A stretch of 40,554 nt of DNA from assembly GCA_013204045.1 (NCBI GenBank), contig JABMOQ010000146.1, positions 1 to 40,554 of the forward strand, in the 5' to 3' direction. Origin of the DNA: Rhodospirillaceae bacterium (GTDB taxonomy: Bacteria; Pseudomonadota; Alphaproteobacteria; Rhodospirillales; JABHCV01). Below, one piece after another: positions 38,147-40,554 of the stretch; position 1 is the first letter of the stretch; every line of letters begins with the position of its first letter. The position numbers were made by a program, and so were the translations under genes. The notes beneath the pieces were generated by a model. That model made no database searches. It was given only the letters and a program-made list of their open reading frames with translations, and was not told where the DNA came from.

Positions 38147-39778
<1,632 letters not shown>

Positions 39779-39793
39779 ACGCCGTGCCTGAAA

Positions 39794-40321
39794 TTATTTT
39801 TTGCGGAAAGCATCAAGGGTGATGACCTCGCCCATTTTTTCGTCATCTGCCGCCCCGTCATCGTCGCCGGGGGCAAGGTCTGTCTCAGCTATGTCTGTGT
39901 TATCGGTGACCGGGGCCGGCTGCGGGGCCGCACCGTTACTGGTTTTGTCAAAGTCGGTAACATCGGCAGACATTTTCAGTTGCAGGACGAAATTGACCGC
40001 CGGATCGGCAAAGGTGGTGACGGCGGCATACGGAATGACCAGTCGAGACGGGCGGCCGTTAAAGCTGAGGGTGACGGCAAAACCGTCTTCGTCGACAACC
40101 AGATCATGGAACTGGTGCTGCAGCACGATGGTCATTTCATCAGGATGCTCGGCCAGCAATGGGGCCGGAATATTGACGCCCTCAAATGTCGTCTGGAAAG
40201 TAATAAAAAAATGATGATCGCCCTTGAGTCCCTGTGCGTGGGTCTGTTCCAGGGCGCGGTGAATAACCTTGCGCAGGGCTTCTTCCACCCAGGTCTCGTA
40301 AGTAAATAAATCAGACTCCAT
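39794..40321 (-). CDS. sspB: ClpXP adaptor SspB (alpha type)
   Basis: SspB binds ssrA-tagged polypeptides and hands them to the ClpXP protease. The 175-residue protein has the alphaproteobacterial layout: a substrate-binding beta-domain (about 1-118, with HHFFITFQTTFEGV, the MTIVLQHQFHDLVV strand pair and FSLTLSFNG-like turn seen here as FAVTLSFNGRPS), an acidic and Ala/Pro-rich flexible linker (about 125-160), and a C-terminal ClpX-binding peptide GEVITLDAFRKK. The ATG at 40321 has GGAG 9 bases upstream. It is directly downstream of the ssrA coding piece and upstream of fumarase, on the same strand. Confidence 0.93.
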   Translation of the reverse strand: MESDLFTYETWVEEALRKVIHRALEQTHAQGLKGDHHFFITFQTTFEGVNIPAPLLAEHPDEMTIVLQHQFHDLVVDEDGFAVTLSFNGRPSRLVIPYAAVTTFADPAVNFVLQLKMSADVTDFDKTSNGAAPQPAPVTDNTDIAETDLAPGDDDGAADDEKMGEVITLDAFRKK

Positions 40322-40366
40322 CGAAGCGGGCTCCGGCCAGTTTCCGGCAAAATCGCCGGGACGAGT

Positions 40367-40554
40367 GGGGGGCTTCTGTTGCCAGGTGCCCCCCGAACCC
40401 CGTGGTTACTTAGCCGTTAGGCGGCAACCGCAAATGCTTCATTATCGTTAGCATTTGTAGTGTTTGGCCCGATAACGGTGGGTACCATGCCGGACGAAAG
40501 TTATGCCTTTACCACGTACGTCGATCCTGTTTCGCCCCCATTGCAAACCCTAAA
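40367..40554 (-). ncRNA. ssrA: tmRNA, coding piece of a permuted two-piece ssrA (partial; acceptor piece outside window)
   Basis: Read on the minus strand, GGGGGCGAAACAGGATCGACG starts at 40539 (20 bases here given only in part: key elements are GGGGGCGA and GGATCGACG), the alanyl-tRNA-like 5' half. A pseudoknot-like stretch follows, then a tag reading frame at 40452-40417 that encodes ANDNEAFAVAA and a TAA stop. A GC-rich hairpin (40394-40367) closes the piece. No tRNA-like 3' half with CCA follows before sspB, so the acceptor piece should lie upstream, beyond 40554, as in the circularly permuted genes of Alphaproteobacteria. tmRNA rescues stalled ribosomes and adds a degradation tag. The exact 3' end is a guess. 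Confidence 0.9.

Follow-up and report, generated by a model that had tools for sequence, protein, structure and literature searches.

The contig analysed here, 40,554 nt from a Rhodospirillaceae bacterium and called the window throughout, ends inside a tmRNA gene (ssrA), and the gene of the adaptor SspB follows directly on the same strand. The degradation tag is written by the RNA and read by the adaptor, and both tag and adaptor serve ClpXP, according to a review (PMC3985003). This neighbourhood raises the question of whether the two genes share a transcript or only a locus, and of whether their order is as uncommon as the sequence-only reading of this DNA had supposed.

The RNA gene was identified using cmscan. 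The model RF01849 (alpha_tmRNA) matched positions 40554-40364 of the minus strand with 133.8 bits (gathering threshold 50), covering model positions 133-355 of 355, and RF04321 (tmRNA_permuted) matched the same tmRNA with 71.1 bits. The window is the whole contig (G000:C115), whose end cuts the tmRNA on the 5' side. In the RF01849 alignment, the last bases of the intervening segment between the acceptor and coding pieces occupy 40540..40554 (minus strand), and the two models together predict the coding piece at 40364..40539 (minus strand). A tag reading frame, ANDNEAFAVAA plus stop, was read directly and found by pattern match at 40417..40452 (minus strand). Furthermore, RNA folding placed a G+C-rich terminal hairpin of the coding piece at 40367..40394 (minus strand), with no T-run in the sequence after it. 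Both models thus identify the window RNA as the coding piece of an alphaproteobacterial tmRNA with a permuted gene, predicted to be of the two-piece kind. ARAGORN called no tmRNA in the window, which may be expected because only half of the gene is present; it likewise missed L102, L237 and L238, and its call in L239 was doubtful, although RF01849 does match L102, L237 and the genomes of L238 and L239. The tag ANDNEAFAVAA was found by ARAGORN in four complete same-family relatives as well. All 26 tags read in relatives from the same order start with ANDN, of which AND was fixed by the search pattern itself, and the middle and end vary (for example, ANDNRMALAA, ANDNKMALAA and ANDNVVALAA).

In the same-family relative L011, a complete ssrA, with the acceptor and coding pieces in one gene, lies upstream of sspB. 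A same-family query for the acceptor half against the rest of the window's own assembly gave nothing convincing (best E 0.387), and the RF01849 searches of the same genome, which missed the cut window piece too, are blind to partial copies. The gene thyA, the neighbour of ssrA in L011, likewise had no match in the assembly. A missing, unassembled stretch may explain both absences, and a true absence of thyA is possible. Contigs break in or beside the tmRNA gene in the window (40554), L087, L119, G230:C288 and G483:C11; the breaks of L087 and L119 fall at model positions 93 and 92, in the acceptor T-arm by alignment. Repeats from islands integrating in ssrA could be the cause. In addition, G007 holds a second, partial tmRNA match at a contig end (C67:3140-3393, model positions 40-271) besides a complete one.

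The protein gene, sspB, lies at 39794..40321 (minus strand) and encodes an intact product of 175 aa, assigned to the alphaproteobacterial-type ClpXP adaptors by PF04386, PDB relatives and alignment. The product matched the Pfam SspB family PF04386 with 138.9 bits (cut-off 27; E 1.9e-40), and its solved relatives were 2qas (4.8e-32), 2qaz (1.2e-31) and 2nys (4.2e-31), the first two of which are titled 'SspB Protein'. With the NCBIfam model NF008765 (ClpXP protease specificity-enhancing factor), which we take to describe the E. coli-type SspB, the score was 19.7 bits (E 0.00067), far below the cut-off of 249 bits. The family is settled by the sequence matches to solved SspB. An alignment of 24 sequences, with G021 and the contig-cut G028 outside it, showed a conserved C-terminal motif, VITLDAFRKK (39797..39826, minus strand), after a variable linker; F172 and R173 are invariant and L169, D170, K174 and K175 nearly so. 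This is likely a ClpX-binding motif of the XB type, a name and a role that we assume for it. Some genomes have unusual SspB matches. G458 in family f78 carries two with similar scores (C33 and C30; 193.1 and 191.7 bits), G456:C1 in the same family carries a strong and a weak one side by side, and the match in the class genome G099 (C12:23962-24447) contains one in-frame TAA. Downstream, 15 nt past the sspB stop, lies a class I fumarate hydratase gene (fumA; 38147..39778, minus strand; TTG start as listed), so that a transcript might span ssrA-sspB-fumA.

The gap between ssrA and sspB is 42 nt long (40322..40363, minus strand), and neither the site scan nor the flank sequence showed a promoter-like or a minus-strand terminator-like site in it. 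A fold gave a small hairpin without a U-tract at 40344..40359 (minus strand), whose sequence, judged by eye, is not kept in four same-family relatives. The coding piece had been described as standing just upstream of sspB on the same strand, with about 45 bp between them. With both genes identified, the adjacency stands, and the boundary at 40367 does not, being the end of the terminal hairpin; the real gap runs from 40363 to 40322. It was also rightly seen that the tag-writing RNA and the tag-reading adaptor sit at one locus. One might suspect chance or an assembly artefact, a contig end joining unrelated pieces, in view of a tmRNA that is cut at the contig end and for whose acceptor half the assembly gave no match. 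However, the junction is internal to the contig and is seen again in many assemblies made independently, and chance would give about 0.02 cases of same-strand adjacency in 113 genomes, assuming 2,500 genes and an independence that kin do not have. The recurrence refutes this suspicion, to which we attach practically no weight.

The gene order was counted in several samples of genomes that share ancestry and are not independent. The order sample had 31 genomes, the window's own and relatives, and 27 of them had both matches. In 24 of these, a same-strand tmRNA ended within 250 nt of the SspB domain, on its upstream side; the exceptions were one at 287 nt, one 2.8 Mb away and one on another contig. 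G000, whose cut tmRNA was uncalled, G005, G011 and G027 stand outside the 27 because one match or both are missing. The class search covered 241 genomes, of which 229 had a tmRNA and 222 an SspB, and the best 150 matches of each were listed. Among the 113 genomes with both genes among the matches listed, the tmRNA was within 250 nt upstream of SspB and on its strand in 78; for the other 35, the distance was 250-1000 nt in 10 and 1-5 kb in 13, and in 12 the genes were separated by more than 5 kb, lay on different contigs or had opposite strands. These 113 are a subset biased to strong matches, and 78 is a lower bound for the 241. In both samples, distances were measured to the start of the Pfam domain, not to the start codon. 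Among the named loci, which are the 80 best of 577 confirmed relatives with flanks of up to 3 kb (shorter at contig ends), a same-strand tmRNA was present in this upstream flank in 56 and within 250 nt in 48; L054 was counted as a miss though its contig starts 26 nt before sspB. Seven loci named as or looking like Sphingomonadales (L081, L105, L108, L113, L116, L121 and L122) have no tmRNA in the upstream flank, nor have four Acidocella loci (L055, L079, L090 and L099), which keep fumA downstream. The link between ssrA and sspB thus seems, from these loci, to have been lost in whole lineages, and the counts as a whole look like an ancient order that some lineages have lost.

The same order was found in the family taken to include Caulobacter, for which the two genes had been described as apart. 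A fragment of the solved SspB 2qas, which we take to be the Caulobacter crescentus protein, led to family f78, and because the SspB of this family resembles 2qas, we infer that f78 is the Caulobacteraceae. The comparison was made through the nearest genomes, with an SspB 98% identical to 2qas. Among the 99 genomes of f78, 96 had a tmRNA, 97 an SspB and 95 both. Of these 95, the same-strand distance was within 300 nt in 66, 300-1000 nt in 10 and 1-5 kb in 11, which places the tmRNA within 5 kb of sspB in 87; in the rest, the genes were on different contigs (six) or opposite strands (two). In the genus group g308, the tmRNA was upstream of sspB on the same strand at less than 3 kb in 12 of 13 genomes, seven of them at less than 300 nt, and in the 13th it was at a contig end. 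This group includes the two genomes with the 98% identical SspB, G478 and G497, in which the tmRNA lies 279 and 125 nt, respectively, from the matched SspB stretch. Locus L240 (the same genome as G478) has the tag ANDNFAEEFAVAA, presumably the Caulobacter tag, and a gap of 258 nt to the sspB reading-frame start. This gap (1222-1479 of L240) contains a repeated unit, seen as a repeated peptide in minus-strand frames. Moreover, in two named Caulobacteraceae, the gap was 92 nt (Brevundimonas locus L102) and 174 nt (Phenylobacterium locus L124). In the nearest genomes compared, a separation of the genes in Caulobacter therefore finds no support, and the order, which the sequence-only reading did not know as a general arrangement, was the majority order in every sample (24/27, 78 of the 113 with both genes among the matches listed, 48 of the 80 best of 577, and 66/95). 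That reading had itself taken a common order as an argument against surprise, and most of the surprise is accordingly removed. The window locus is one ordinary instance of a gene order conserved in the Alphaproteobacteria, and both genes and their roles are already known. A literature search, in which primary papers were covered in part, found this order stated nowhere in the text available, and we make no claim that it is unpublished.

Conservation of the pair could be a by-product of a larger block, folA/thyA-ssrA-sspB-fumA, in which the two genes hitch-hike and their contact means nothing by itself. L011 has exactly this order, with folA/thyA divergent upstream and fumA downstream, and in the named loci (the 80 best of 577) a same-strand fumA followed sspB in 35, and thyA was present in 15. 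The four Acidocella loci, which retain fumA and have no tmRNA nearby, fit a block as well, and because of them the ssrA-sspB junction is, at least in these loci, not always the most durable one. However, among the 48 adjacent named loci (again from the 80 best of 577), thyA was seen in 14 and fumA in 21, and a hand count gave 23 with neither gene in the flanks; some genomes may lack these genes altogether, and the counts should be taken as indicative and not as rates. In the Caulobacter-like L240, the pair is flanked by other reading frames on either side. Since 23 of the 48 have neither neighbour, the pair appears independent of the larger block, and hitch-hiking is disfavoured as very improbable.

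Of the 25 complete order relatives, 21 have a TATAWT word just before the acceptor piece, always at offset 27 of the RF01849 match, and 23 have a -10-like hexamer among the first 45 nt of that match, compared with 1.8 in shuffles. In the ssrA-sspB gaps, such hexamers showed no excess (13 of 91 gaps, compared with 10.0 in shuffles); loci without an ATG candidate are outside the 91, and G019 is outside both the hexamer and the gap-length counts. Within 39700-40554, a scan of low power found no promoter-like site on either strand, where chance alone would give 0.5; its single terminator-like site was on the plus strand inside sspB, and the minus strand had none. The gap to the chosen sspB start was at most 60 nt in 42 of 102 loci and at most 40 nt in 22, and by chosen start the gap was as short as 19 nt among the order relatives and 8 nt among the class genomes, which leaves little room for a separate sspB promoter outside ssrA. 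Shine-Dalgarno-like words preceded 54 of the 102 sspB starts, compared with 37 when these stretches were shuffled once, which is weak support at best. A shared ssrA-sspB transcript is plausible and mildly supported by the lack of promoter-like or terminator-like sites in the gap, the lack of a hexamer excess and the short gaps, which together make the ssrA promoter the likelier source of sspB transcripts.

T-run terminators were also considered as a mark of separation, with the expectation that they would be commoner where ssrA is parted from sspB. This was rejected. At least five T in a row within 20 nt were found after ssrA in 7 of the 78 genomes with adjacent genes and in 3 of the 34 without, G230, whose contig ends at the tmRNA, being outside the comparison. 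The mean T counts, given as descriptive means, were 5.58 and 6.82, respectively. Because T-runs are about as rare in non-adjacent genomes, a missing terminator cannot be read as a sign of co-transcription.

The main rival to a shared transcript is that the two genes are neighbours by ancestry and separate units, with ssrA ending at its terminal hairpin by Rho or by processing and sspB having a promoter of its own. The G+C-rich hairpin at the end of the coding piece, the longer gaps or parted genes of many genomes and the T-run comparison without a difference all agree with separate units. So do published blots. In Orientia, Northern blots showed a tmRNA precursor of 372 nt and two pieces, with no longer product reported there (PMC7335160), and in Sinorhizobium meliloti, stable tmRNA pieces of 82 and 214 nt and an unstable premature form were described (PMC2873474). 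However, separate units fit poorly with the empty promoter scan, for all its low power, with the 91 gaps without hexamer excess and with gaps too short to hold a promoter outside ssrA. They would need an sspB promoter that departs from the consensus or is placed within the coding piece of ssrA, and a scan of this power does leave room for one within that piece or of another sigma type. We consider separate units rather unlikely, at something under one chance in three.

The reading that we regard as fairly probable is an ordinary ssrA-sspB locus in which part of the sspB message comes from read-through of ssrA and the two-piece tmRNA is set free by RNases. A promoter immediately before the acceptor piece would drive a permuted precursor consisting of the acceptor piece, the intervening segment and the coding piece. 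Much of the RNA would end at the hairpin that closes the coding piece, or be trimmed back to it, and RNases, probably RNase P and tRNase Z, would excise the intervening segment to give the stable two-piece tmRNA, with pieces like those of 82 and 214 nt in S. meliloti. The precursor and two pieces seen in Orientia fit this reading too. Both enzymes were suggested for this processing in a review (PMC3985003). A share of transcription would read past ssrA and supply the sspB message, since there is no intrinsic terminator after ssrA and no recognisable sspB promoter in the 42-nt gap. Overall, ssrA transcription would be strong and its products mostly short, some of them extended by read-through, and the tag-writing RNA and the tag-reading adaptor would be inherited, and probably expressed, together. 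For this organism, we infer the ssrA promoter (beyond the contig end), the read-through and the processing. A wider proposal, to which we give slightly less than even chances, is that in much of the class one promoter and one precursor yield both the stable two-piece tmRNA and the adaptor mRNA, with cutting or stopping at the 3' hairpin setting the ratio of writer to reader.

As a single locus, the window pair matters little, as its genes and their roles are known. If the wider proposal were true, the pair would represent an operon, spread through the class, in which a structured housekeeping RNA is joined to its protein partner. Co-transcription would then explain how tag and adaptor stay in step. 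Moreover, the 3' end formation of the two-piece tmRNA, which would require separation from the downstream message, would be directly testable in laboratory strains, Caulobacter among them.

Compared with known systems, the window locus is closest to the Caulobacter type. It has the same permuted gene, order, strand and SspB family, with sspB downstream in the nearest genomes, and its tag likewise starts with ANDN and ends with AVAA. The two differ in the gap, which is 42 nt in the window and 258 nt (to the reading-frame start) in the Caulobacter-like L240, and in the tag, that of the window being two residues shorter than that of L240. In E. coli, ssrA is a one-piece gene, and sspB is in an operon with sspA, away from ssrA; the SspB family is nevertheless shared, for PF04386 also matches the E. 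coli control. With Sinorhizobium meliloti and Orientia, the window would have in common a permuted precursor cut into an acceptor and a coding piece; the RNAs of those two were measured, whereas the window tmRNA is predicted from its sequence.
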